This document shows positions 17,743-55,506 of a DNA stretch of 64,000 nucleotides, one piece after another. Both the position numbers and the translations under genes were made by a program. The notes beneath the pieces are model-generated. The model ran no database searches. It had not been told where the DNA came from and worked only from the letters and a program-made list of their open reading frames with translations. Source of the DNA: Ceratodon purpureus (taxonomy: Eukaryota > Streptophyta > Bryopsida > Pseudoditrichales > Ditrichaceae); assembly GCA_014871385.1 (NCBI GenBank), contig CM026421.1:11731128-11795127 (forward strand), given 5' to 3'. The first letter of the stretch is position 1. Each line of letters opens with the position of its first letter.

Positions 17743-20314
17743 AATGCGATTATTCCAACCTCTACAAATCCACAAAAGAGCCCCCTACAGTACCCCCAAC
17801 CAACCATGCCCCCAAATCCAAGCCACCTCTCCCCCAAACTTAGCCTCCCAATCACCAGAATAAAAAATCCTCTCCAGTCCCCCCTAACCTGACAGGACTC
17901 GGCTTGGGCCAGCTTTCCCGGAGCATCGCCAAATTATGATTAACCCTGTCAAAAGAATTAAAAATAATGATTAACTCTCAATTAATTATTAATCAGTTAA
18001 AAGAGAATTATAAAAGTAGATGAGAGTATTTAATTACGCCGTATTTACCACTGTTGCCCAAGTGGGCGAAACAGCTTATTACAAGAATGGTGCCAAGAGT
18101 CAGAGTCACGAATATTGGTGGTTTTGTTTTTGCCATTTCAGGGAATAATCTAGAGAGCCAAAAATAAAAAAAAGAAGAGAAGGGATCCTCGAAGTAAGGA
18201 TTGTCGATGACAAAAGCAGGAGTTCGTGGAGCCTGTATGGTTCCCGGAAGTGGAGGGCGTGGAGAGTAGTCTAGACTGGAAGCGATCTCGAGACGCAGGC
18301 AACTCGGGGCGGGTTGTGGTTCGATCCAGTGTCGATGATCGACGATCTATCGCCACCGTGATGAGCTCGTGCGGATCAGTCGTCATGGGGACTTCGAGTG
18401 ATCAGCTTCCTGACGCTGAAGACACGGCGCCTCTTGGTTCTTGTCTTGGTGGTGCAGGCGCGACGTAACCTCTGCTGGAGGAGGTGGATCACGCGGGGCC
18501 ATCCATGTCGGTGTGGCGTTGCAGCGCCGAGGTCTGGTCAGGTGGGTTGGGACGTTGCCTGCACTGGTTGGATTCCAGGAAGGTTGATATGCTAGACGAG
18601 TAGCCCTTGTTGTTGTTATCTGCCACTCTCAAGTTTCTGGTAGCGAGCGTGACCTGACTGGCTTTATGAGGGCTGGTGGGGTTCGGTGATGTCGGGGAGC
18701 GTGAAACTTTCGTCGGCTGCGGCCTGACTTGCAGGTTTGATGAGACTTCTGCATTGTAGTAATGGCCGGCGGACTTCGTTCTTAATGTGATGGTTTAGAG
18801 TGCTGTGATGTGTTATGTTGTTCAGTAATGGACGTTAGAAGTGAGTGACCACAACCGTGGCGTTGACGGAGTTGATGTTTCGCTCAGTTTGATGGAACAC
18901 GCAGGAGGGGGACTAGTTCTTGCAATGAGTAGTGGTTCTCGAAATTTTTGTGCTTTCTGGTCGTGAGCCTGAAATTGTGTGGGAGAAGTTTTGGTTTTTC
19001 TGCTTCTGCAACTGATGATTTTCTTCTTGATGCGAATTTTAACGCTTGATCTCTGTTCAAGAGGAAGCTAGCTCTGAGTTGGTTTCAGCCACATTGGTGG
19101 GCGTGAAGGAGTGAGTTTCATGAGAAGGGGACGTGTTTGTTTGGTGATTGACCCAGTCTCGTCTCTTTAAGACTCGTTTCTAGCGGTGACGTCGAACCCA
19201 GCTCTTATCTCCTAGCAAGTCGCAGTGACGAAGTCGTCTCCTGGAGCTTACGGAAGTTACAGAACAGCTAGCTGGATCGATTCATAGGGCCACAAGAGTG
19301 CCCTTTTGGTCGCCTTTGGAGCCCTCCTTTTGGAATTATAGCAATACCGCCGGAACCGTCATGCAGCTTTTGCATTAATTGCTCTTTTCATGACAACTAG
19401 TAGTTAAGTTGTCGGCTTGCGGATTCCTCTCTCTCGCTTGCGTTTCGCTTCGGCAAGCATGGCCAGCTCCAGTTTTCTGCCTTGTTGACATAGATTCGCT
19501 CTGAGGGTTTTGCCACGGAGTGGGGTGGAGTGGAGACACATTTTGTTAGGGGCGTGTTTGTAGCGAAGCGTGGATTGTGCGACTTGGACGAATACGAGAC
19601 TTGAGCGACGTTGAGTGAACCGCAAGTGTAGCTGATTGACTCATGCTGGCAAGCAGTCCGTCGAAGCGAGGGAGAAGCGCCTTTTGACTTCTTCTCAGGG
19701 AAAGATTCTTCGCTACTAGGCGGCACAGTTTTCCACGAAGTTTGAAGAATTCGCAGTGGGGTAGCGAGGCAGTTGGCGCGTTTGGGTTGGGGTGGGATTT
19801 GGGCGTTTTCAAGGGCATTGTGGGCGCTATTTTGTGGGGTAAGTGAGCAAATGTGGGTAATCTGATGAACGCCTTCCGGGTCTCGCCATGGCCGCAGATA
19901 TGGATCAGAGCTTCAGAGCGAAGGAAGCAATGAACTCCACACTCAGTGAATCCAGCCACTCGGTGAAGTTTCGGAATCGAGAGAGGAGTGAGTATGAGCT
20001 CTGCTGCTGGTGGTGAAGTCGTCATCTTCAGCTCGGATTGTCGTGCCGGTGTGAAGCTCGCAAGCGTGTGGTGGATTGTTGCAGCAGGCTGTTGATTGAT
20101 GTGGGGATGGGGTTTAATGAGTATGTACAATTGGCGTGGCGCCTCTGCCAGTTTTAGGTCGTAAAATTCAGTGAGGATTACCTTCGTGTTTAGCGAGCGA
20201 GGAGCTGGGGCGAGGCTGTGCGAGAATTGTTTTCAGTGAGTCTCCGTGATCATCTTGTCTCCTGTTTCCCCCTAGTGTTTTTTTTGGTGTTTTTTTGTTT
20301 GTTTCTTCTTGAGT
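17743..20314 (+). other. Upstream region and probable long 5' UTR/promoter of the STICHEL-like gene
   Basis: GC content rises from about 18,180 onward compared with the flanking AT-rich DNA, as expected for a 5' transcribed region. ORFs here (for example 18226-18468) do not splice convincingly into the main frame. Pyrimidine-rich CTCTCTCGCTTGCG-type tracts occur near 19,430. No TATA box stands out. Confidence 0.4.
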
Positions 20315-23300
20315 ATGAGCCAAAGGCCCCATGGAAAGGGCGTTGTGAGTGATTCCGAGGGTTTGGCGACCAGCGACGCAGAGAGGAAACAGAGAAGTTC
20401 GAAGTTTCATGGAGAGAAGCATGTGCATTTGACAAACAATATTCATATTAGACGACACTTGCACTTGCAGAGCCACGGCACTGGGGGTCTGATGTTGGAT
20501 GCCCGGCGGACCACACCGCAGCTCCCTCTTCTGAGGGAGGTGACAGCGCTCCAGAAGATCCGCACTCTGCAGGACCCGGGGACGAGCTCGGGCTCCGCCA
20601 CCGCGTCCTCTGCCGGGAGCTCGGCAAGGCGCGGCCACAGCAAATCCGTCGAGACCTTCATCGGCGATCCACACCGCGATGCACAGGCGCTCGCCATTGA
20701 GCTCTCTGGCAAGCTCGCCAAGTCCGCCGAAGTGTCGTACGCGAGCGATGGCGCCAGCAGCCGCGTTTCACGACCCCAGCGAGGCCGAGTGGAGAAGGGC
20801 ATTCGAGTAGACAATCCCCCTTCGAAGCGAGGTGGGAAGAAGATGACCGCCGAAGAGCGGGGCAATGCCAAGGGCTATGTCGAAGTCCCCTCAAAAGTCG
20901 ACGTCAGGGACAGGATCAAGCGAATTGAGCAAGCGTTTCAGGATGGATCCACAACGAACACACTCTCTGGTGAGTTGCGGAAGGAGGGGCTCATCAAGGA
21001 ATTGAAAGAGCGGGGACGGATACAGAGGGACAGGGAGATTGCCGAGAGGAGCAAGGCCGATACAGCGATTCTGCGCTCGGATGAGCGATGGGAAGAAGGG
21101 CCTGCGAGACGAGAGGAGCTCGCGAGGAGAGTCATCGAGGAGCGTGGTTCCTCGATCTCCTCCCTCTCGCAGCTCCTGGGAGCCCATTACGGTAGCGGTC
21201 GCAGCGCACAGCAAATTCTACTCGGCATGGTGGACGATGAAGTCGATCAACGCAGCAGCAATCACGGGGAGAGTTTGTTCGAGACCGATGAAGACGAGCT
21301 CAGCCCCATGGAGCGCGAAATGACGCGACCACGGCCGGCGACGCTGAACCCCGCATCGCCTTTGCACTTGGCTTCATTGTCGCGTGGGAAGGAGGAGTTC
21401 AAAAGGGCTCGCAATCCTCGAAGCCGGAAGACGAAGCCCGGGAGCAAAGGATCGAGAGAACGGAACGTCAACGCACCTCGCCCTCGGAGTAGGAACGTGA
21501 ACCCGGGTGTAATTCCCCCGAGCAGTGCCATAGCTGACGACGAGCTCGACGTCTCCGAGCTTCCGCCGCAGAATGGATGCGGCGTTCAGTGGGATTGGTC
21601 GCGGATTCACAAGTACGGTGGGAAAGCATTTCTCGATTTGACTGGGTTGACATGTACAGCTCCGGAATCCGCACGGCGCGGTGATTTGGAAGCCATGATG
21701 GCCGAGCAAAGCCTGCCGGTGCAGTCGATCTCGTCGCTCGATTCCGACGCTAATGCGCTCCCGCTCATTATCGGCGAGGATGCACATGACAGCGACTTTG
21801 CTGCAGGGTACATTGAGACGGGAAGGTCCCGTGAAGTGCCGCAGAAGCTTGCGACGAAGCGGAAAGTTTCCCTTCAAAACGCTGTCAAGGATGTGCCGGT
21901 GGTCGAGCCTGCGTCCACGAGCAGGTCGAAGGAGGGGCTCGCAACGCCACCGCCCGAGGGGCCTCGCACTTTGACGCAGAAGTACAGGCCGAAGAATTTC
22001 AGGGACATTGTGGGGCAATCCGTGGTGGTGAAGTCGTTGTCCACAGCGATCATGAAGGGGAAAGTGGCGCCTGTGTACCTCTTCATGGGCCCTCGCGGGA
22101 CGGGCAAGACCTCGGCCGCGAGAGTGTTCGCCGCGGGGCTCAACTGCGAGTCGTTGGACTATGTTCGTCGACCATGTGGGATATGTCGAGAGTGCGGAAC
22201 CATGGCACTGAACCGGAGCGCGGACGTGCGAGAGATTGACGCTGCTTCGAATGCGGATCTCGCCAGCATAAGGGCGGCGATGGGGAGCTTCCAACCCGTG
22301 GGGCGTTACAAGGTGTTCATAGTGGAAGGGTGCGACTCCTTGAGCACCGACATATGGAATGCGTTTCTAAAAGTGTTGGAAGAGCCTCCCACGAATGTGG
22401 TCTTCATTCTGATCACCACGGATGCAGACCAGATTCCCGACACTGCTACCTCGCGGTGCCAGAAGTTCAACTTCTCGAAGGTTAAGGAAGCTGATATTGT
22501 GACTCGGCTTGAGATTCTGGCAAGGAAGGAGGACCTGGATGTCGAGGAGGGCGCACTGGCGCTCATAGCAGCGAGGTCGGATGGGTCGCTGAGAGATGCT
22601 GAGATCAGGCTTGACCAGGTCTGTCTGTTGGATAAGGTTGTGTCAGTTGAGTTAGTTCGAGAGCTCGTGGGGCTGCTCCCCGATACCGAGATTTTGGACC
22701 TGCTCGACTATGCTCTCTCAGCCGACACGATGAACACCGTCCGGACTCTGCGCGAAGTGCTGGCCTGTGGCGTTGAGCCATTGTCGTTGGTGTCGCAACT
22801 GGGAACGCTTATCACAGATATCCTTGCTGGGAGCTATGATGTGCATCGGGAGATTCGCGGAGAGGGATTCTTCAACCGAAATTTTTGTAAGTCAGTTTTG
22901 AGTATTGGTAATGTAGTACATTGTTCAGTTGAATCGATCATGTGAACTGTCGATGCTTTTTGGTTCTTAGCATGTCGCTTTTCTGTCTGTTTTTTTGCAG
23001 CTGTGAAAGAGGAGCAACATCGGCTCCGTCAAGCGCTCAAGATTCTGTCGGAGTCCGAGAAGCAGTTGAGAGTGACGAGCGATCGGGCAACTTGGCTAAC
23101 AGCTGCGCTTCTGCAGTTTGCACCCGATCGATCGTTTCTTCCTTCAGAAGCAAACAATAGTGCAGCTCAAAGCCCTCTCGCACCTCAGAGTGCCAGACCA
23201 GCTCCTCACCACTCGCTTCCGAGATCCGACCTCCCGTCCATGGATGAGCCAGAGTATCAGACCCAGCTCGGATCATCCATGGAATTAGGGCAACATACAC

Positions 23301-25245
23301 TTGAAGCATATGCCGAAAGTTCGCAGAGACGTGATTCTCCTGAGGTGAAGAATGCCGTTTCCTTGTCTGAGCAGAAGCTAGAGGAGGCTTGGACCAGGGA
23401 ACCTCAACGAGTCGCAGTGGAGTATGCGGGTGAGACTTCAGAAGCCAGACGTGCGTCGGAGGCTATTTCTCTGGAGTTTCAGGTGTTTCGGGACGAAGCT
23501 TTGGATGAGCTTTGGAATCGAGTGCTCCGGGAGATCACTTCTCGCAGTTTGAAGCATCTTCTGCACACACACGGCCGACTTGTCGCTGCTGGTGTTGCCG
23601 TTGGTAAGCATCTCAGGCCTACACTATCCCTCGGAAAGCCGAGTGTTTAGGTATTTTTTTGTTTGATCTTGCTCCGGTGTCTGTATTGACATTGTCTGTG
23701 TTGTGAACTTCAGATGGCTCATGTGCGGTTGTGGAGTTGGAGTTCGACTATCCCCGTGACAAACATAAAGCAGAGCGGTCATGGCGTAGCATCTGTATCG
23801 CATTCCAAGCAGTGCTCAGCACCGCTGTGGAGCTTCGAATTGCGTTGAGTGACATGCCACCCGAGGAAGCCGAAGCTGCACGCATAGGGGAAACCATGAC
23901 CGACATGCAGGCCGGCCCGTCAACTCCACCCAAGAACACCGAGATTGTCACCGAGGATTCTAACGGTGACTACTCCATGCGGCCTGGTCTATCAACCCTA
24001 AACCCCAAACAGAAAGAGATCGCTTATGACGACGACGCTTATTTGAGAGAAATGCAGGGAGTTGCACCTTCACGTGGTCACCGAAAGCGAGGAACGAAAG
24101 CTCGCAAGCACCGTCACGCTACAGAATCTCTGGATAAAGATCCGCGTCCGCAGCAGAGTCCGGATGGCATCACTCCTCGCCGGCTGCCTCCGAGTCGGAG
24201 GCGAAAGGGGAAACGGAGCCCAAAGACAGCGAAGACGGTGATTCCTGTCCGGGAGATGAGACTTTCGTCGTTAGAGGATAGTAGTTTCGGCGGTGGTGAG
24301 ATATGGGATTCAGGGCCGCAGCTGATCATGATGGACAAGCAGCCTGGAGGGGAGAAGAAGAAACTGCTGAGCACCATGATGGAGGAGCCGCAGAGTGAGA
24401 TCGAGGATATTAGATCTGCCAGGAAGAGGATCTGGGAGCAGAGAAGCGCCAGACTCGATGTTTCTCAGCCTGCAGCTATTGATCGCAGAACAAGCACGTA
24501 AGTACATTGTCACCGAAATGAATACCATACTTAGCCTGCATAGACTACACAATTTTTTGAAGCTCTTTGTGTGCAGATTGCTCTTCCTACATTAGATTAA
24601 GCTCAGAGAGAGTGTGACCTTGGATCAATTCGTGTCTCCCAATTAGTTGGGAGTTTGTACATGATGTTTACATTAGCTAGTACAAGATTTTTCCAAAGGT
24701 CTTCGTGCCTGCAATTTTTTACGATTTATTGCAGTTGATAGATTTTTTGAGGGAGATTTGAAGCTTTGGAGCTTCAGTGTTTGCTGGATTTGAGTGTTAG
24801 TTATGCTTCTAGAGACAAGGAGTTACAATAACCTAGAACTATTTGCTCAGGAATTCTGGTTTAATTTTGGGACTTCGTGTTCAATTTCAGGGTTGATGCT
24901 CAGCGTGGACTTCCAAAGGAGAGCTTGCGTTGCTGGAAACGGCCGTCACCTCAGCGTGTGGTATGCTCCTCATCTGAGACTACTGGGTATCTTAGAATAA
25001 GTAAACAGGATCCAACTCCAGAGATTTCAAGATCATGGTCATTACTTTCCACTTTTGTATCGAAGTTAGTGCTGCCTTCCCTTCTGTTGTGTCTAATATT
25101 CTGACTCGTCGAATCCTTTGTTGTGCTTGATCAGCGGAAGACAAGGGTGAAAGGCTTGCGAAAGGCACGAGGGAAGGCACTCTTCCTCAAAATGGTGCCC
25201 TGTTCCCACTCCAGAATAACTAGAAATGCCCCACCAGCTCCATAA
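20315..25245 (+). CDS. STICHEL-like protein (DnaX/clamp-loader-like AAA+ protein)
   Basis: Five exons (20315..22886, 23001..23603, 23714..24497, 24891..24960, 25135..25245) keep frame and give 1379 aa. The ATG is the first in the frame. The N-terminus has the family's HLTNNIHIRRH and LQKIRTLQDPGTSS motifs, followed by a low-complexity charged region. The AAA+ core begins at about residue 550 (LTQKYRPKNF), with Walker A GPRGTGKTS at 592-600, zinc cysteines C611/C621/C624/C627, a Walker-B-like VFIVEGCDSLS near 668 and TSRCQKF near 713. A DnaX domain III-like region and the C-terminal VVELEFDYP and ESLRCWK motifs follow. Arabidopsis STICHEL controls trichome branching; its relatives are presumed cytoplasmic or cytoskeletal, not replicative. 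The last two exons are inferred from phase and the CWK motif. An alternative GTAAGT read-through ends at 24501. Confidence 0.9.
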
Positions 25246-44818: not shown

Positions 44819-46894
44819 CTAGGGGGGGTGTGTAGGGAGCGGTTGATGATTTTCGAGGCGACGTTTATGGAGGAGGATGGAGCTAGCATGGTGGATTGCA
44901 ATTGTATTGATGGCTTTAAAGGAGCGTTTTATGGAGGTGTCACAGATTTAAAAGGTTTTGTCGATTTGTGTCATGGAGTGGGTGTGGGTGGTGCCTCGAG
45001 CACCGGCAGTGATAACTACAAGGGGGTCTACTTTCCAGCCATGTTGGATGATGTCCTGGATGAGGGGTTGGTATTTAAGAATTTTCCGTCCAATAGTCTC
45101 AGGGGAAAAACGGTCATTTGTATATGTAAATTCTATGAATTGGATGGAGAGTTGGGGGGAAGGGTGGGTGGGATGCGGGGATTGGTACGGGAGGCCTCTG
45201 ACGCAGAGTAGATCTGGTTTAAAACGGGCATTACAATGGCAGCGAGAGTGGGTGCAGGTACAGGGTAGAAGCCAAGGGGGTACAGTGTTATCGGGGGGTG
45301 AATTATGAAATGAGCCTGCATTCATGAGAATGAAGCAACGGGATTTTTGGGAAGATAGCAGGAGTTTTCGAAGTTCCCAGACTGCTTTGTTGTGGCGTTT
45401 AACTCGGAGGGCATGGAGGTGATGTTGTGTACACAGTAAAAGGACATGGAGCCATGTATCTGCATCTACGGAGTGGCATAGGGGGCATGTTTTAGAGGGG
45501 AATCGTTGGAATCCAAATATGAGTTGTTTACGGGCGTTGCCCATGTATTGACCAGTACGAAATTTGAGTAGGCTGGTTTTCTGAGAGTCGGTGATGTCCG
45601 GGTTATACCAGAAGTCATTGGAGAGTATATTGTCAATCTCAGAGTTGGTGGTCCATTTGTTGATGTTTGGGAAGTCGGAGGCTAGGATTTCGAGGTTATG
45701 TTCACGATCGTGTTTTTTGATGTAGTCTTCCAGTGAGCGGACTGGTCCTTTATCAGGACGTTTGTGGGGGCCTGGCCAGGTGTCTTTTTGGAAGAAATAA
45801 GGGGTGGTATGGGCAAATTCATGAGGTTTAGTGGCGAATCGGTAGTTGCGGAGCATTGTGGCGGCTTTGGCTAATTTATCGGCTTGTTCGTTGCCATCAA
45901 TTTTGGAGTGGGCTTTGACTTTATTTATGGTAGTTAGTTGGGTGCGGGTTTGTAGCATTTTGATCATATCTTGGAGGATAATTTTGTCAGCATGATTGTT
46001 GTGTTGGGTGGGGTGATGTAGTTGTGTGTTGAGGACATGAATGCAATTGAGACAGTCAGTAAAAATATGGGCAGGTTCGTGGCGGTAAGTAGTGGAGATG
46101 AGGGTAATGGTGTCGTAGGTGGCCATTAGTTCAGCTCGAAAACAGGTTTGGAGGCCCGGGAGGCGTTTAGAGAGGCGTACTTCGGGTTTGGAGGGGTTGT
46201 ATATGCCATAGCCAGCTTTTTCTTTTTTCCAGTGGCCATCGGGAGCTAGTTCGGGGGGGAGGAAGGAGCCATCCGTGTAGTAGGAGTGTTGAGGAAGGAA
46301 TTTAAGAGTTAGTGGAGTGGAAAAGGGTGGTACAGGCGGCGGGGGGTTTTGAGGAAGGAGGGCCAGGGGAGGTGGATATAGGAGTTTGTGCCAGTTTTTG
46401 CTGTTGTTGACTGTGGTATGGGGGGGTGTAGGGGGAATGGGTTGGATGTGGTATTGGGGGATGTTGAGCGTTGTTAGGGTGGTTTGGAGAGTGTGGAGGG
46501 TGGTGGGAGGGTGGATAGAGTGAGAGTTGTGATGAATACACCAAATATGAAGGGCTAGGGGTTCTGGGGAAGCCGGAACTATATTGGGGGGGTAGGTAGG
46601 AAGTTCATATGTAAGGGTATCAGCAGCAAAATGGAGCAAGGCATGTGTGTCAGGAAATGGTCCTAGGAGGGGGGATAGGTTTTGGTACCAGTCTGTGTCG
46701 GGGATGGTAAGAATTGTGATGGTAGATGGGTCATGTTTGGCGGCAAGTCGAGCCCAATGGATTGCTTGTTGTGTTGTGGCAAGATCATGGGGATGGGCGT
46801 AGCCTATGCCTTGCCATTTGAAGCTAAAGGCAGTACCAAGGGATCCGAAGAGTTGATCTCTGATGAAGGGGGAGTAAAAGTGGGGAAGGTGCAT
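44819..46894 (-). CDS. LINE ORF2 C-terminal part: RNase H, CCHC finger and conserved tail
   Basis: The main open frame is 46894-44948 (648 codons). The RNase H domain spans about 46,285-45,860, with acidic residues in YTDGS, RAEL, TDCLN and NEQADK. It would remove RNA from the hybrid during second-strand synthesis. A zinc knuckle, CPLC-x9-H-x4-C, lies near 45,430-45,495. The tail near 45,060-44,960 has KYQPLIQDIIQHGW and VITAGARGTTHTHS, and continues after a 1-nt shift at about 44,945 as an ICDTSIKRSFKAINTIAIHH block to a TAG at 44819. I know this tail from other LINE polyproteins with an IHEHS-like motif and an LNKRKL-like end. Confidence 0.8.
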
Positions 46895-47694
46895 GGAGCA
46901 GGTGAGTGGGGAGGAAAAGTAGGAGTGAGTAATGTTGAAGCTCGTAGTCAGGGCGTCGAGGAGTGGGGTAGGGAGGGAGTGGTGGGGTGACGTGGTAGGA
47001 TTTTTGGTACTGGAGGGGTGGTGATATCGTTGATAGAGCCATACGATTTCGGTTTCAAACGGTTGAGGAAGTGGGGTGAGGTGATGAGTGCGGTGGCGGT
47101 TATTGTGATATTGGTGCCAGAGCCAGGAGAGGCGGGTAGTGGGGATAGTGGTGAGATATGAACCGGTTGCGGTGTAGAGGTGAGTTTTATCAGCTTGGGT
47201 ATGGAGGGTGCAGGTATCGGTGATGATGTCTTTATCGGGGTTACATTCAAAGGTAGAGGTTTGAGTGGAGGGGAGGAGGGTTGGAGGAGGGATGAAGCGG
47301 GTGTCACGAGGTTGGGCAGGGGAGAAGAGCGTGTTGACAGTGTGCTGGTAGGTGCGGTGTGCTAGGTGAGTATAGTAGAGTTTGAGAAGAGTGAGGTGGT
47401 GTTGGAGGGTGAGTGGTTGATTGAGAGGGAAGAGGTGCCGTTGAGCCAGCCATTTGCTATAAGGTTGTTGTTGTGGTCCTATCCATTGGCAGAGGTAGGC
47501 AGTGGAATGTTTGGGGATTTTATTGGAGTCTTTGGTGGTGGTGGTTTTGTGGTTAAGAATGGTGGAGATTGGATGCAGAGAGGGATTTTTGAGGAGGCGG
47601 GGTGGGGGTGGGGGGTGGGGGGGTCGGAGGGGGAGGGGGGGTGGGGGCGGGGGGGAGGTGGTCGTTGTGGATTAATATTGTGAGGGGGGAGGAT

Positions 47695-48696
47695 CTATTG
47701 GTTTTTGAGGGTACGGGGAAGGGAGTGTAGGGGGCAGGGTTGGGGACAAGTAGCAAGGCAAGGGGGTGTACAGAAGAGTTGGTCCGCAATGTGGAGGGCA
47801 CTTTTTTCTAAGCAAGTGGGGGGATGATAGTAATTTGAAAAGTCAGTGGGGGACATCAGAGTGGTGCCATTTGGAAGGGTAAGTTGTTTGATTGAGTGGA
47901 TGTTGTTAGCGAGGAGTTTGTATAGGAGTTTGAGAGAGAGTTGGGGGTTAAGGTGAGGGAGAGCTGTAGGGGCGGTGGTGGTCCATTCGTGTTCTAGACT
48001 GGATTTGTGGAGGAGGAAGCCTGGTTTTGTGCTGTTGAGGTGGATTTTGCTGACTGTTTTGGTGAGGAAGAGGGTGCGAGTGGTGGGGGAGCGGATGCAA
48101 TCGTATGATGTAATACGGGGGATATCGTGAGAACCTCCGGCTTTAGCTAGAATATGTTGGATAAGTCCGTTGTATATGAGACCGAGGCGGCCGGTGTCGT
48201 TGAGTGCATTGCGGAGTTGTTCACTGATACAGCGGAGATACGCGTTTTTTAAGGAGAAGGCTTCAAGTCCGAAGAGGTCATGGGGTAGTTGGGTGAGGAC
48301 ATTAGCGGTGCTGCGAGGGAGGCCACAGATGGTTTTTTGGATGGCAATTAGTTTTTTGTCAAGTTTTTTGATAGTGGGGAGTGTATACGGTACAGCAAAG
48401 AAACTATATGCAATTCCTGCCCGAATGACAGTGTCAACCATATTTATTTGTTGTCGGATTGAAGCAGGACATTTCGTGAGTTGTTTACATTGGTCAATGA
48501 TTTTCTGGGTAGTGACATGTGTTTGAAGTTTCCATTTGAGGGAGGGGACAAATTGTATTCCTAGGTATACGTAGGATTTGTTTTGGTGAAGGATGGGAAT
48601 TGGTTGGTTACGGTAATGGATGTGGTGGGATTGGATGTGGGCTTTGAATTTAAGTGGGTTGAGTTTGGTTTTATTAGGCATCCTGTGACGGCGCAT
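47695..48696 (-). CDS. LINE ORF2 segment: RT thumb and connection
   Basis: This frame continues the reverse transcriptase after a shift near 48,690. It contains KSYVYLGIQFVPSLKWKLQ, the YLG motif that follows the RT palm in LINEs, then an alpha-helical region (IDQCKQLTKCPASIRQQINM; FGLEAFSLKNAYLRCISEQL) typical of LINE thumbs. It runs into a Pro-rich C-tract region with more frame breaks around 47,580-47,690. Between 47,690 and 46,894 lies a Pro/Ser/Thr-rich linker. Confidence 0.75.
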   Translation of the reverse strand: MRRHRMPNKTKLNPLKFKAHIQSHHIHYRNQPIPILHQNKSYVYLGIQFVPSLKWKLQTHVTTQKIIDQCKQLTKCPASIRQQINMVDTVIRAGIAYSFFAVPYTLPTIKKLDKKLIAIQKTICGLPRSTANVLTQLPHDLFGLEAFSLKNAYLRCISEQLRNALNDTGRLGLIYNGLIQHILAKAGGSHDIPRITSYDCIRSPTTRTLFLTKTVSKIHLNSTKPGFLLHKSSLEHEWTTTAPTALPHLNPQLSLKLLYKLLANNIHSIKQLTLPNGTTLMSPTDFSNYYHPPTCLEKSALHIADQLFCTPPCLATCPQPCPLHSLPRTLKNQ

Positions 48697-50192
48697 TTGT
48701 TGACACCAAGGTCCATGCCTGCCCAGTTGCAGAAGCGGTCAATTTTGTGTATCTGAATTTGAAGAGAAGGGAGTTGGGAGGTTAAAGCAGCAAGGTCGTC
48801 AGCATAAGCAGCGGAGCTAACGGAGGTAGGGGAAGTGCCGAATTTATAGCCATGGTCCCCTTTTTGGAGCCAACGGAGGAGAGGTTCGAGAAAGATGAGG
48901 AAGAGGTACGGACTTAGGGTATCGCCTTGTATGGTGCCACGTTGGATGGGGATTGGTTTGGTGTGGCCAAAATGTTCACCAGTGAATACGGTGTTAGAGT
49001 GAGAATAGATATTACCAATTAACAAGACGGCATCGAGGGGGTAACCTAGGTCTTGCATAATTGTGAGGAGGCGTGCGTGGTCAAGGGAGCCAAAGGCATT
49101 TTTGAAGTCAATGTAGAGGAGGTATATATCTTGGTTTGTAAATCGGGCGTCTTCGAGAGCAGCAATGAGGAGTTGGAGTTGGCGGGCAGTGCTGCGTTCT
49201 GCTCGAAAGCCCTCTTGGCTATCATGTAGGATTTGGTGGTGTTCTCCATAGGCAGAGAGGATGTATGTGAGTGTGCTTGTGAAAAATTTGTAAATTGTAT
49301 TGGCAAGGGCAATAGGACGGTGATTTACGAGTTGGGCGGGGTCTCCTTTTTTGTAAAGCAGAATGGTGAGGCTAATTTTCCAGGAGGCAGGGATTTGTTT
49401 TTGTTTATAGCAGTGGGTAAAGAATAGAAAGAGCATGTCGTGAAAATTGGGAGGGAGGTTTTTGAGGATAGAGTTGGGGATTTTGTCTGGGCCGGGGGTT
49501 TTGTTAGGGGATAGGTTTTTGAGGCACGTGTCAAAGATATTTTTGTTGAAGTGTTGATGTAGTGGGGTGGTGGGGTCACCACGTTTCTCGAGGACAAAGC
49601 CGTCGAGGTCATGCCAGGGGTATTGGCGGACACCACAAGTACAATGGGGGTCATGATCGGGTTGGAAGTAGCAGGTAGGAACCGTGGGCCGGTTGCTGAT
49701 AGATTGTTGGATATGGATTTCATTGGCGATATCGTCAGGGCTAGTGAGGATATTGTTTGAGCGATCCAGGATGCAGTCAAGAAGGAGGTTGTTAAGGTTT
49801 TTGAAAACTCGGTTGTTGATTTTCTTTGGGCTTTTATCATAGAGTTGGCGGTATTTTTGAACGGCTTTTTTGATACAATTTTGGGTGTGCTTGGTAGTGA
49901 TCTTGCGGGTTTGGAGTTTGGCATGTTTGGCGATATCGGCGAGGGATTGTTTCCAGTCAGGGAGGAGAGCTGGGTCAGTGGGGAGAGGAGGTAGGGTAGG
50001 GCTAGGATGGATGTGAAGTTCGTGGAGGATGGGGTGTGTTTGCCAGTTGGCAGTGGTGTTGATAATGTAGAGAGCTTTCCGGATGAGGTGGTAGGTAGCA
50101 AGGTGTTTTTTCCAGGGTTTTTGGAGTTGGCGAGGGAGGAAGCCGCCTTGTTGGGAGGTGCGAGGGGTGAGGGTGGGGAGGGGGGGGGGCAC
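48561..50192 (-). CDS. LINE ORF2 segment: reverse transcriptase palm and fingers
   Basis: All core RT blocks are visible in order: NKTPGPDKIPNSIL, SWKISLTILLYKKGD, NHRPIALANTIYKFF, QEGFRAERSTARQ, YLLYIDFKNAFGSLDH (first catalytic Asp), GTIQGDTLSPYLFLIF and AYADDLAAL (catalytic Asp pair, near 48,783-48,809). The segment is intact for 543 codons, which argues that the copy is not ancient. It begins next to a G10 run at about 50,181-50,190 where the frame shifts from the endonuclease. Confidence 0.92.
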   Translation of the reverse strand: MPPPLPTLTPRTSQQGGFLPRQLQKPWKKHLATYHLIRKALYIINTTANWQTHPILHELHIHPSPTLPPLPTDPALLPDWKQSLADIAKHAKLQTRKITTKHTQNCIKKAVQKYRQLYDKSPKKINNRVFKNLNNLLLDCILDRSNNILTSPDDIANEIHIQQSISNRPTVPTCYFQPDHDPHCTCGVRQYPWHDLDGFVLEKRGDPTTPLHQHFNKNIFDTCLKNLSPNKTPGPDKIPNSILKNLPPNFHDMLFLFFTHCYKQKQIPASWKISLTILLYKKGDPAQLVNHRPIALANTIYKFFTSTLTYILSAYGEHHQILHDSQEGFRAERSTARQLQLLIAALEDARFTNQDIYLLYIDFKNAFGSLDHARLLTIMQDLGYPLDAVLLIGNIYSHSNTVFTGEHFGHTKPIPIQRGTIQGDTLSPYLFLIFLEPLLRWLQKGDHGYKFGTSPTSVSSAAYADDLAALTSQLPSLQIQIHKIDRFCNWAGMDLGVNKCAVTGCLIKPNSTHLNSKPTSNPTTSITVTNQFPSFTKTNPTYT

Positions 50193-50199
50193 TGCAAGT

Positions 50200-51240
50200 T
50201 TCTTGGATTGTGGTAGAGATGTTTGTGATTAGTTGGTCAAGTTGGTTGCAGGAGGTTTGCCATTGGGTGTGGGTGAGATGTTCATTGGATAGGAGGGTTG
50301 TAAGTTGGTTAATGAGTAAAGCATTTTCTTTGGAGAAGGTAGTTCTAAATTTATCGAGATTGCTGGGTGGGATAGGGTTGAGGAGGCGAGGTATGGAAGC
50401 GGGTTTTGGGACTGTTTTAGCGAGGAGGATGTTAGGAGGAATATATAATGTAACCGGAGAATGATCTGAGTTGAGGGTGTGGTGAGTGTTGGTAGTGGAG
50501 GAATATATTGTGTTGTGGGGTGATTTGATGTAAAATCCATCAATTAAGCTGGTTTGCATGTAGTTGAGGCCGCCTTGTCTTGTAAAGGGGGCATTAGTAG
50601 GAATATAAGTGAGTTGTAGGTTGTCGGTGAAGGATCGCCATAGGAGGTCTTCTGGTTGCGGGGGTGTAACGGTAGAGCCATTAAGACGACCGATAAGGGC
50701 GATGTCTCGATTAAAGTCGCCGCAAAGAATGTGGGTGAAGGTGGGGTGCATGTGGAGATGTGTTGGGTGATGTGTTGTTGGATGAGGGAGATGTGGGGGA
50801 CGTCTTCAATGTGGGAGGGCATATAAAGATGGAAGATGAGAATGGAGGGAAGGGAGGTGTTATTGAGGCGGATGATTTGGAGGTAAGGGGAGATTTCCTT
50901 TTGGAGTAGGGATTTTGGAAAGTTACCAGGATAGGCATATTTTTGATGGATTAGAGTGAGGAGGCCGCCACGTGTGGGAGTATAGGGCATGCGTTGTTGC
51001 ATGCATCTGGTTAATGCATGGGTATTATTAAAGAGGAGTTTGTAGTTTGGAAATAACTGTTGAAGGAATTTGGTGGATTTGGTGTCAGTGAATTTTGTTT
51101 CTTGGATGGAAACGATAGCGGGTTCATGGGGGGCAAGGTGAATTAAGTCTTGGAGGCTAGGGAGGGCGGTGTTAAGTGAGGAGGCGTTCCAGGTGATAAA
51201 GCAAGTGTCTAAGTTGGTGGTGGGGAGGATTTGGGGAGGT
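50200..51240 (-). CDS. LINE ORF2 segment: APE-type endonuclease (frame broken)
   Basis: The endonuclease makes the target nick for target-primed reverse transcription. The first half (about 51,215-50,756) has CFITWNASSL, VSIQETKFTD and RGGLLTLI. The second half, in another frame after a shift near 50,755, has ILCGDFNRDI (near 50,715), SLIDGFYIKS and NSDHSPVTLYI. These are the Asn, Glu, Asp-x-Asn, Asp and Asp-His blocks of APE endonucleases, all present. The break is a single-base shift, and another shift near a C-rich run at about 51,240 separates it from the 2A-bearing frame. Confidence 0.85.
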
Positions 51241-52662
51241 AGAGGGGGAGTGGGGGGGGAGTGGAGGGGGGTGTGTGTATTCTGGGATGGGTTCATAAAT
51301 TCGAAGAGCTTCGTGGAGGAGGTTGTCAGGGAGGAAGGGGAATTTGTGAGAGAGGGAGTGAGGGGTAATTGTGGCGTGGTTTTGGTGGATGAAGTCATAG
51401 AGTTCGGTGTGGATGTGTGGGGGTGGTTTGATAAGCCGTGGGTTATTTTGGATGAATTCGGTGTAGGGGTGGGGGGTGGAAATGTGTCTTTCAGGGGGAT
51501 TAGGTAGGAGGGCCATGCGGGCAAGGAGTGGGGTGATCCAATCAGGGGTAGGGTAATGGTGAAGAAGGTGGTTACATTTCTGAAGGGAGGGACTTAAGGT
51601 GGTGATGAGGGCATAAATTACGCGCGGAGGGGGGTGGTGTTGGTGTTGGAGAAGGTATTGGGATAGGTGGGGGAAGGCGGTAGATGTGGAAGCATGATTG
51701 GGGTGGGTGTGTTTGAAGAGTGGGTGAAAATGGAGGGCTAGGTGTTGATATTCAGGGCGGAATTTGATTGTGCAGGGGAGGAAGTAAGTTCTATAACGTT
51801 TTTTGTGAGAAGGTGGATGGGTGGTGAGAATATCGGGCATAGGGCCTGGGTTGGATTCTATGTCGCCGCAGAGGAGGAGAAGGTGAAGGTGGGGTGTGAT
51901 GTGGTACTGGAGGGTGTGAGGTTTAGGGCGTCGGAGGGAAGTGTGAGAGTATGTAATGATGGTGAGATGACAGGAGTAGAAGGGGGGAAATAGCAGTGGG
52001 AGAGGGTAGAATGATGAGGAGGTGTTAAGGGGGAGGGAAGGACTGTGTAGAGAGTTGAGGAGGGCGAGTGAGAATTTGTGGACATATATTAAGAGAAGTT
52101 GAAAAAATGATTTGTGAAGTAGGGGTTGCGGGGAGTAGGGGAAGTGTGGAAGTATGGGGGGCAAAAGAAGGAGGTGTGAAGTATGGTAGGTGTGGTAAGG
52201 AGGGGGTCTTGGAAGGTTAGGGGCGGGTGTCGTCCGCCCGGGTATCGGCAGTCCGGGTATCAGCAGTCTGGGTAGCTGTATTCCGGGTATGTGTATGCCG
52301 GGTATTGGCAGTCCGGGTAACTGTAGGCCGGGTAGCAGCAGGCCGGGTATAGGCAGTTCGAGAAGGTGGCGGTGGGAGGTGTCGGGGAGAGTGGGTCTGA
52401 GTGGCGGACGGGGGATGGGGATGCTGTCGGGAGAGAGGGAGGAGAGAGGAGGGTTGTGGCAATTTGCGGAGTAAGTGCGGGGGGTATGGAGCAGGGGTCG
52501 GGAGAAGGAGGATGGGGGGGCGAGGCGGGGGTAATCGGGGAAAGGTTGGGTGTAGGGGTGGCGGGGAGCAAGGCAGGGTAGGGGCGGGGCGAGAAGGGGC
52601 CGAGGGAGAGAGAAGGGTAGGGGATCAACCGGGGGAGGTGGGGGGGGAAGGTGTTGGAGCAA
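51172..52662 (-). CDS. LINE ORF2 N-terminal segment with Pro-rich region, PG repeats and 2A motif
   Basis: An open frame of 496 codons. It starts with a Pro/Leu-rich stretch, then a [LI]PGxx pentapeptide array (52,236-52,356). A hydrophobic segment (FFQLLLIYVHKFSLALL) and a Tyr/His/Leu-rich run follow, ending in LLLLCGDIESNPGP at 51,841-51,882. Downstream of that motif are about 200 residues of His/Pro-rich sequence leading to the endonuclease. If the 2A works, the ribosome would release the upstream polypeptide and start the endonuclease-RT polypeptide at the final Pro. The start codon at 52662 is the first ATG of the frame and may not be the one used. Confidence 0.65.
   Translation of the reverse strand: MLQHLPPPPPPVDPLPFSLPRPLLAPPLPCLAPRHPYTQPFPDYPRLAPPSSFSRPLLHTPRTYSANCHNPPLSSLSPDSIPIPRPPLRPTLPDTSHRHLLELPIPGLLLPGLQLPGLPIPGIHIPGIQLPRLLIPGLPIPGRTTPAPNLPRPPPYHTYHTSHLLLLPPILPHFPYSPQPLLHKSFFQLLLIYVHKFSLALLNSLHSPSLPLNTSSSFYPLPLLFPPFYSCHLTIITYSHTSLRRPKPHTLQYHITPHLHLLLLCGDIESNPGPMPDILTTHPPSHKKRYRTYFLPCTIKFRPEYQHLALHFHPLFKHTHPNHASTSTAFPHLSQYLLQHQHHPPPRVIYALITTLSPSLQKCNHLLHHYPTPDWITPLLARMALLPNPPERHISTPHPYTEFIQNNPRLIKPPPHIHTELYDFIHQNHATITPHSLSHKFPFLPDNLLHEALRIYEPIPEYTHPPPLPPHSPSTSPNPPHHQLRHLLYHLERLLT
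51841..51882 (-). other. 2A-like translational recoding motif
   Basis: The motif LLLLCGDIESNPGP matches the full 2A consensus D-(V/I)-E-x-N-P-G-P, preceded by the usual leucine-rich helix and a Gly. 2A causes a skipped Gly-Pro peptide bond. It is known from some viruses and from several animal and trypanosome LINEs. Confidence 0.8.
52236..52356 (-). repeat. 15-bp minisatellite encoding a [LI]PG pentapeptide array
   Basis: Eight imperfect units of CCGGGTATYGGCAGT on the plus strand. In the ORF2 frame they encode a PIPGL/LPGLQ/IPGIH-type elastin-like array upstream of the 2A motif. Confidence 0.75.
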
Positions 52663-53404
52663 AGGGAGATCAGGGATTGGAGAAGGGAGAAGGGATCGAA
52701 GGAGAGGGGGGGGGGAGGGGTGATAGGGCGGGGATTGCCGGAAATGAGTGAGGGGGGGATTGGGGGATGGGCGGGGGAGGCGATTAGTGAAAGGGGTTCG
52801 GGAGGTGTAGGGTAGGAGGGGAGTCCGGGGCAGTGGGGGCGGGGAAGGAACCGTCGGGGTTTAGACAGGAGGGGGCAGTGAGGCAGGCGTCGGGGGAAGG
52901 GGAGTGTGTAGAGAGGGGCTGAGTGGAGGGGGTTTTGGAGGGAGGGAAGAGCAATTAGGTGGCGAGGGGAGAATGAGGGTGGGAGGAGGAGCGGACGTGG
53001 GGTGGGGAAGCGGGAGTTAGGGGGAGGGATGAAGAGAGGCGGGGAGGTGGTGTTTGGTGAGGGCAGGAGAGTCGGAGGGGATGGGGGTTGGGGGGTGTCG
53101 AGGGGCGAGACAATGGAGGGGGGGGGGGGGGGAATATGGAGCGAAGGAGGGGAAGCCTTGGTGGGTGGAGATGGGGGCCGATGCTGGACAACATGCGACA
53201 GGACGACTCCAAGCACAGTGGGAGAGTGGAGAATCATCATACGGGAGAAGGGCGATTTTATTGCAATAAAGGAAACATAGGGGGGAAGTGGGAGAAAACA
53301 CAAAAGCAAATGTAGCAGCCGCCATGAAGGCAGAGAAAAGGAGGGGCAGCAGGCGCGGCAAGGTTGGTAAGTGCGAGAGAAACCTTAGCTTGAGGTGAGG
53401 TTGT
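52663..53404 (-). other. Spacer between LINE ORF1 and ORF2
   Basis: Extremely C-rich on the sense strand, with a G15 run on the plus strand at 53,118-53,132. Pro-rich open frames exist in all three minus frames and cannot be told from composition effects. Confidence 0.4.
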
Positions 53405-55506
53405 CTATTCATGAGGGGGGGGCGGGTTTTGCAGGTGAAGGGGTGGCAGGGGACCTACGGCAGGGCCAGGATTAAGCGCCGTGAATATGCCTTCCATCTG
53501 ATCGCTGTACGCACGGGAGGCAGAGGTAAGCTGTTGAAGTTGATGAATGAGATTCGTGTGGTGTTGGAGAGTCTGTGCGGAAGATGCGTCAACTTGAGCG
53601 GTGGTGTGGGTGTTGATGTTGGTGCCGATGGCTGTGATGTGGGTGCGCAAGCGGTCTTCTACGGCTTGAATGGTTGTTTCCAGTTGGGAGACTGAGGAGG
53701 AGGCGGAAGTTTCGTTCTTGAATGCCGTGATGGCCTCGGCGATGACTTCTCGTGTAGGGCGTTGGTCTTGTGCACAGGCGGTGGGAATGGGGTTGGCGCC
53801 AGCGAGACTCTTATTGTGAGGAGAAAAGTCGATGTGTTTACCAAGGAGGGGAACTCCTTTGCGGTTGCACCAGTGGGTGTAGACTGCAGAGTTAAGGCAA
53901 CGGATCGTGGCAATGCCGTCATGGCGACCTAAGGCATCTCCTTCAGCGCGGTTATAGTTCACAGAGAGGACGTTCTTGGGGCTGAGGAGCTTGTGGATCG
54001 CCGTGGTGATCTGCAGTTGCGAATACTCAACAGGGAGACCTCGGACAAGGATGGAGGTGGTGAGGGCCTCGGGGGTGTGGGGGTTTGAGGATCTATCGGG
54101 AGGGGTTTGGATGATGAGCCTGTGTCCTGCAAAGAGAATAGGTGTATCGAGGAGGTACCGCTTGGTATGGTCTGAGGCAACCGTGATCTCTGCTGATTCG
54201 AGCTCCTTAGTACGCTTGGTAACCCCAATAAATTCAAGATTGGCCCCTGCCAAGTAGCCATGGCGGGTGAGTTCGCCAAGGAGTTCACGGGATGTATAGC
54301 GAGCAAGGATGGAGCTGTGCAGTTCGAGTTTGCGATTGTGGGCAGTAGAGGGGAAGTCGAATCCTTTCTCGACCTTCCCGATGGTGTAGGTGAGGTCTTG
54401 CAGTTGAAGTGTGAAGATGCGATCCCCGTTGAGGAGGGCTATGCCGTCAGTGCTAGGGTTCAGGAGATCAACCTTGAGGAATCCGAGCCAATTCTTGGTT
54501 TGGGGGTGGACTAAAGCTGAGATAGGTTCTCTAAAGCGATTGGCTAATGGGATCCCCATGGATTCAAAACGAGCAAGAGCAGCTGCCTGTACTTCTAACT
54601 TCTTCATGTCGTTGTAGCCATAGTCAAAGCGAATGACGATGGGGTGGGTGTGGGAGAGACCTGTGGAGGGGTCGACGACTGTGCCATGAGGAATCTGGGT
54701 GAGATGGTAGAATTGGCCAGGGATACCATCTGGGCGGAGTGATGGAAAGAGCTTCTGAGGAACATGTGGGAAAGAATGGCGACATGTGAGGTATTCGTGG
54801 ACCTCCGATTCTGGCATACCAGCAGTGGCAAGTTGAGTGGCTCCATAGGTGGAGGACTCCGGGAGACCTCGCTGGACATTCAGCATCTCATGAACCGAGA
54901 AGGAGAGCCACAGGTTGTCAACGTACTGGGAGAGGTTAGGGGGCGGGTGCACCGGGGTGATTGTGGCGGCGGGGCTGGTGTAGGGCCGGGAGGTGGTCCT
55001 GTCCTTGCAGCGGTATCGACGGTAGCCGCATCTGGTGGGGGAGGAGCAGAGGGAGCAGTAAGGGGGCGGTGAGCAGGGTCTTGGGCGGTGGTGCCTGAGG
55101 AGCAAGCTGAGAGAGGGGGGAGGCTGGAGTGAGAGAGATTAATAGGAGCGAAGGGCGAAGTAGCAGGGGTCTGGTAAGAGAAAGAATTTTGAGAGTCACG
55201 CTCTCCTTGAGAGCCGTCGCTGTCCTGTTCGTCAGTGAGGAGACGACGTCGTCGACGGGACCGCTGGGATGTGGAGGTAGGAGGTGGAGCGTGGGCGAGG
55301 GCGAGCGGGCCGCAACCATCCGGGTAGTCCCGTACGCCTATGGGGCCGTCGTCGTTGAGCATGGTGGAATCCATCAGAACGTCGATAGGAACTGAGCGCT
55401 GGGAGCTAGTTCGCTTCGGCCTGGCTCCTGTAGACCGGGGAGGAAGGGTGGTGAGAGTGTCCTGGGAAGTGCTAACCCGGCGAACCACAGACTTGACTCG
55501 GGCCAT
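53405..55506 (-). CDS. LINE ORF1 (RNA-binding, RRM-like plus coiled coil; one frame break)
   Basis: The ATG at 55506 gives MARVKSVVRRVSTSQ and a basic Ser/Pro/Arg-rich N-terminus with an RSRRRRRLL patch. The frame then shifts by one base between about 55,050 and 54,950 and continues to 53405. The second part has globular composition, with an ILVRGLPVEYSQLQITTAIH block (RNP2-like) and DGIATIRCLNSAVYTHW (RNP1-like) near 54,060-53,860, which together suggest an RRM. A heptad-rich C-terminus (ETTIQAVEDRLRTHI; HHTNLIHQLQQLTSA) suits trimer or dimer formation. ORF1 proteins coat LINE RNA. About 700 aa in all, larger than most ORF1s. The RRM call is by eye. Confidence 0.7.

Follow-up and report, generated by a model that had tools for sequence, protein, structure and literature searches.

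A retrotransposon of the LINE type lies on the minus strand of the window, i.e., the whole stretch of 64,000 nucleotides of the Ceratodon purpureus genome (contig CM026421.1) that was analysed here. The following parts could be assigned to it, from the first open frame to the end of the second:

53405..55506, minus strand: ORF1 (ATG start at 55506 by eye), its frame interrupted somewhere between about 55105 and 54880
53405..53412, minus strand: ATGAATAG, the leader AUG overlapping the ORF1 stop region; the AUG starts 5 nt upstream of the TAG
51844..53412, minus strand: 523-codon leader of the second open frame (ORF2), running from the AUG (53412-53410) as far as the Gly in NPG
52238..52357, minus strand: 15-nt tandem repeat in the leader, 8 copies, encoding LPIPG/LQLPG-like units
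51841..51900, minus strand: 2A (StopGo) segment ITPHLHLLLLCGDIESNPGP, recognized by its sequence and kept by sister copies
Gly 51846-51844 / Pro 51843-51841, minus strand: 2A break as predicted from the motif position
50188..51218, minus strand: APE-type endonuclease region, frame-broken (PF14529 match and tblastn)
48684..49343, minus strand: reverse transcriptase (RT) domain RVT_1 (PF00078), E=1.7e-24
46799..47068, minus strand: PCIF1-like domain towards the C-terminus of ORF2 (PF12237; 41.0 bits against a cut-off of 31.1, E=1.9e-10)
45860..46282, minus strand: RNase H domain (PF00075) near the ORF2 end, E=3.2e-14
44948..46894, minus strand: final open part of ORF2; it contains RNase H and, at the C-terminal end, a knuckle of the form CPLC...H...C (the knuckle by eye)

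The element has the APE endonuclease ahead of the RT that characterizes APE-type LINEs; its PF14529 match is below the cut-off of 27.4 bits in the window (20.8 bits, E=3.6e-4) and at the cut-off in a sister copy (L039, 27.4 bits). The RT is of the non-LTR kind: besides RVT_1, the matches among solved structures were R2 and L1 ORF2p. With an RT profile, three R2 sequences scored 116-128 bits, human L1 ORF2p 69-76 bits and two further R2 sequences 63-68 bits, and a single-sequence search with an E limit of 1 brought up R2 but not L1. The window copy itself is dead, since APE and RT are reached only across frame breaks. A tblastn search with the sister copy L073 recovered its downstream protein as six pieces in changing frames, and its leader frame carries two in-frame stops (53019 and 52863) between the AUG at 53412 and the motif. 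The corresponding downstream stretch is open in several sister copies, and in L073 this frame is open for at least 1798 codons, to the end of the fetched stretch.

ORF1 of the window is 48% identical to ORF1 of L074 over 55036-53420. Its structure model shows RRM-like folds with moderate confidence (mean pLDDT 61.5), and the best matches of this model in the PDB are RRM proteins (E about 1e-7). ORF1 is predicted to carry RRM-like domains and a C-terminal coiled coil. The model of the RT/C-terminal part was poor (45.8) and its fold search returned nothing at E 0.001 or better; we therefore make no claim of a chromodomain-like part in the C-terminus. An Rfam search of the window gave no match. 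Elsewhere in the window (20309-24501, plus strand), there is a STICHEL-type gene that has clamp-loader domains together with a match to PF23007, which is specific to STICHEL.

A 2A peptide is a short sequence that makes ribosomes skip one peptide bond; such peptides occur in viruses and in some animal and trypanosome elements. The sequence LLLLCGDIESNPGP (51841-51882, minus strand) is a 2A motif located in frame upstream of the LINE endonuclease and RT. Its part GGCGACATAGAATCCAACCCAGGCCC is placed at 51867-51842 (minus strand) within the open frame 51172-52662 (minus strand), which is translated through the motif as ITPHLHLLLLCGDIESNPGP followed by MPDILTTHPP (context in this frame: HLHLLLLCGDIESNPGPMPDIL). 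The earlier note on this DNA had the coordinates right and gave no strand; the true strand is minus, and the plus-strand reading is unrelated. The motif agrees with the 2A core (D/G/C/N)(V/I)ExNPGP and, in a by-eye comparison with PMC12846837, where the StopGo core and the L-rich class are defined, with the L-rich upstream class (ending in (A/S/C)G, with D at p12 and S at p15).

In 100 dinucleotide shuffles of the window, the motif had no match. A degenerate DNA pattern of it (which lets through some close variants of the core as well, e.g., GDME in L008) matched 151 times in the whole assembly (362.5 Mb), and the reversed pattern did not match at all; the shuffles and the reversed pattern exclude a chance origin. 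For locus reading, 100 of the 151 places were listed and available. The first 30 loci fetched all had the motif followed by a family-like protein start (30/30, by eye). Thirteen further loci were taken from 30 listed places that do not adjoin a family match, and 12 of these match the downstream protein of L038 (blastp; two over just 18 residues), while L079 is frame-broken and resembles L078 by eye. Among the loci read, the motif therefore belongs to a single superfamily. One of them (L047) has two NPGP sites, and at one of these the core is altered (GATEQNPGP), which looks like two elements lying side by side.

Copies were also collected with the downstream protein, independently of the motif, and 150 of 327 candidates were scored. 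The best 30 of the 150 (including the window's own locus and its two near-identical neighbours, L069 and L070) have the exact core in 25 cases and N for D, a variant reported active in PMC12846837, in one; L057, L058, L060 and L061 are decayed. Furthermore, the pattern stands directly ahead of 70 of the 103 homologues within the range of the listed motifs (37/42 on C1-C5, 33/61 on C6). This count covers hits on C1-C6 up to the last listed C6 place, and for hits beginning inside the query the motif place was projected, so that copies bearing indels count as lacking the motif. On C6 (110.5 Mb, probably a sex chromosome), the pattern is missing in 28/61 copies compared with 5/42 on C1-C5, as if old copies accumulated there; the sex chromosomes of C. 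purpureus are described as exceeding 100 Mb each in a genome of 360 Mb (PMC8000587).

The earlier note had proposed a 2A sequence in a plant LINE upstream of endonuclease and RT, to be given up if sister copies lacked it or had it out of frame. The sequence half of this test was passed: sister copies retain the motif in frame between two coding stretches, the window copy itself being broken. The presence of a 2A-type motif ahead of a LINE endonuclease/RT in the moss genome is thus confirmed as real. 2A LINEs are known in animals and trypanosomes (cited in PMC12846837 and PMC5972666), but that the copies could be contamination of the assembly from these groups is already contradicted and virtually inconceivable: they are found on contigs C1 to C13, which also hold many of the 85 matches to light-harvesting proteins (PF00504), and the window bears the STICHEL-type gene.

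For the analysis of conservation, five duplicate loci and one frame-broken locus were removed, and 54 copies were sorted into 29 groups at 85% identity; note that some single-member groups (e.g., L015, L030) look like frame-broken members of larger groups. In the 21 motif-independent groups, mean identity is 91% over the eight-column core, 77% over the six preceding residues, 34% over 30 columns upstream and 72% over 100 columns downstream. Five of 172 eight-column windows, the core included, reach the identity value of the core, and the core persists where the downstream protein is only 34-46% identical. In 18 pairs from 40 open copies, omega is 0.21 for the downstream part, 0.22 for the 2A segment and 0.52 for the leader. 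With a frame-neutral alignment, the leader, measured over 150 codons ending 20 before the break, gave 0.54 (0.45-0.65) in frame, compared with 0.99 and 0.75 in the other frames, and the downstream part 0.19 in frame. These values come from stop-free copies, which brings some bias, and 0.54 in the leader is modest. The difference between the frames argues that this stretch of the leader is most likely translated in the frame of the motif.

Alternatively, leader, endonuclease and RT could form a single fused protein, made with no skipping at all, in which the peptide is a conserved part. The residues upstream of the core do differ among families (LALLQCG, LKLSG, DQCG), which would suit such a protein. 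However, what is conserved is the StopGo core (D-I/V-E-x-N-P-G-P, with x free), which stands ahead of the endonuclease while the leader diverges, and a fused chain would bear 503-860 weakly constrained residues before its endonuclease; we regard a fused protein as improbable. The upstream variation bears on efficiency as well: according to PMC12846837, changing the characteristic upstream residues nearly abolished StopGo activity in almost all cases, and since these residues vary in the moss, some of its families may skip poorly.

Another explanation would be that ORF2 begins normally at the Met after NPGP (PMPDIL...) and that the peptide upstream is an untranslated or unrelated stretch. This Met is present in the window and in 56 of the 75 rows of our tree, and some database gene calls begin at it (P0128, P0129, P0155). 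Yet 19 rows carry another residue (among them the decayed copy L060, and P0168, which is cut at another match). In the PINQ and PTTLHT lineages, Ile, Thr or Pro follows NPGP. In seven non-Met loci (L002, L003, L018, L075, L076, L081, L084), the next Met lies 105-297 codons downstream, and the motif is therefore not a disguised start site. The leader frame is also constrained, and the 2A segment varies at synonymous sites and little elsewhere (omega 0.22). A normal start at this Met is thus very improbable, and internal initiation there was rejected as contradicted by the non-Met lineages. Upstream of the motif, the last 300 leader codons contain no Met in L002 and L003, and one Met and two stops in L018 (of a non-Met lineage); the only Met in the entire leader of L038 is the one at the ORF1 stop.

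All 13 junctions counted have an AUG in a different frame, placed 1, 5, 8 or 19 nt ahead of the ORF1 stop. The sample of junctions (the window, L038, L040, L073, L074 and eight places chosen from 71 ORF1-tail matches) is small, selected and in part related, and eight of them were followed only within 201-base stretches around the stop, which weakens the stop-restart half of our proposal. When mock stops were placed inside ORF1, 21 of 588 passed a looser test, every one of them in L038. The frame of the AUG runs without a stop as far as the 2A motif in L038, L040, L073 and L074, giving leaders of 503, 860, 719 and 587 residues, respectively. A start codon overlapping or near the stop is the arrangement of coupled termination-reinitiation, and the moss junctions resemble the AUGA and AUGnxUGA arrangements listed as frequent in PMC5972666. 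The arrangement is not universal, because in L039, left out of the 13, ORF1 and leader form one uninterrupted frame; L037, whose ORF1 end was not located, was also left out. The single translation start assumed in the earlier note has to be replaced by two, given the separate ORF1 upstream and the leader's own AUG at its stop. Its hydrophobic leader with PG repeats is present in the window copy (15-nt units) and does not extend to L037-L039, where basic HPKSK-like repeats are found instead. The tandem repeats have 18-nt units in L038 (about 43 copies) and L039 (about 21 copies). The unit thus stays short and in frame (18 or 15 nt), and its amino acids differ strongly between families.

Downstream of the motif, the order in the family is APE, RT, PCIF1-like domain and RNase H. 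The PCIF1-like domain is also present in L073 (7400-9799), and a genome search with PF12237, the cap-adenosine methyltransferase family, gave 277 candidates, of which 150 were scored, all above the cut-off; location in a LINE was checked for part of them. The characteristic motif of PCIF1 is NPPF. At its position, the five copies read have HPPN (two), HPHN, HTHN or HPHD, which makes catalysis by this domain doubtful.

Outside the moss genome, a protein search with one moss copy gave 182 proteins, of which 120 were listed. The core is present in 39 of the 117 new metagenomic proteins listed and changed at the motif place in four listed proteins (P0142, P0146, P0162, P0168; by eye); the remaining listed database proteins were not seen to extend to the motif place. 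In the tree, the moss rows fall into several clades that interleave with those of the database rows, long branches making the deepest forks unsure. This interleaving suggests that the 2A motif was probably present early in this LINE lineage.

Taken together, the element is probably a two-ORF APE-type moss LINE in which stop-restart leads onto a leader of 503-860 aa and 2A skipping then leads to the endonuclease/RT protein. The motif with its frame and conservation, the constraint on the leader frame, the stop/AUG arrangement and the domains are features of the sequences themselves; that skipping and restarting take place, and with what efficiencies, is what we infer. A single mRNA of the open relatives would yield three proteins. 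ORF1p, with its RRM-like domains and coiled coil, would arise by ordinary initiation. A fraction of the ribosomes terminating ORF1 would restart at the AUG overlapping or just before the stop and translate the long, repeat-rich and weakly constrained leader. At NPG/P, the nascent 2A peptide would cause release of the leader, and elongation would resume with no new start, so that the endonuclease-RT-RNase H protein would begin with Pro and need no start codon of its own. The endonuclease/RT enzyme is thus probably made as a separate protein.

Skipping might also be incomplete by design, so that the enzyme is produced in a fused as well as a separate form; such a double outcome is reported for the 2A signal sequences of sea urchin (PMC4981915). 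The hydrophobic stretch ahead of the motif in the window copy and the upstream variants that may reduce efficiency would be in line with this, but the composition of the leader varies widely among families, and we consider such a dual output rather unlikely.

2A sequences in frame ahead of APE and RT are reported for L1Tc/Ingi of trypanosomes and for animal APE-type LINEs (Heras 2006, Odon 2013). L1Tc also has RNase H, as the moss element does. To our knowledge, the known 2A LINEs are one-ORF elements with short leaders. The moss element differs from them in its host, its leader of 503-860 aa, the AUG at the ORF1 stop and the retention of a separate ORF1. The single ORF of the Ingi/L1Tc type is not found here: ORF1 is separate and has its own stop in 13/13 junctions counted; L039, outside that count, has one continuous frame. 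With plant L1-clade LINEs, the moss element shares two ORFs, an RRM-type ORF1, APE and RT (and RNase H with some), and adds to these the 2A motif and the PCIF1-like domain. With SART1 (Kojima 2005, as presented in PMC5972666), it shares an ORF2-frame AUG at the ORF1 stop; SART1 uses UAAUG, whereas the moss element has AUGA or an AUG 5, 8 or 19 nt upstream, followed by the 2A step. The viral StopGo sequences of the L-rich class have the same LLLLCG-D-I-E-S-N-P-G-P pattern (PMC12846837), but that survey deals with virus sequences, whereas the moss case is a chromosomal plant element.

This 2026 survey reports that it found no evidence for plant viruses using StopGo, and it describes Rao 2025 as covering viral and cellular proteomes. 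No 2A sequence in a plant LINE was met in the literature searched, which consisted mostly of top-ranked results and lay outside Odon 2013 and Rao 2025, the latter of which may list plant cases. 2A in LINEs is already known; the plant case and its pairing with stop-restart were not met in this literature, and priority is not established, as those two studies fall outside it.

2A sequences are in use as a tool in plants. We consider it reasonably likely, judging from the sequences, that a deep plant LINE lineage makes its endonuclease-RT through stop-restart and then ribosome skipping, with no start codon for the enzyme and a dose equal to the product of two efficiencies. If so, land plants would have a native use of 2A that has been conserved for a long time, and the same protein would carry a PCIF1-like domain. 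From a conserved case on the chromosome it would follow that plant ribosomes have long been acquainted with 2A, and such a case would be a source of many natural 2A variants that evolved in plants. Furthermore, it would offer a LINE in which two recoding steps, each measurable with small reporters, set the output of ORF2.
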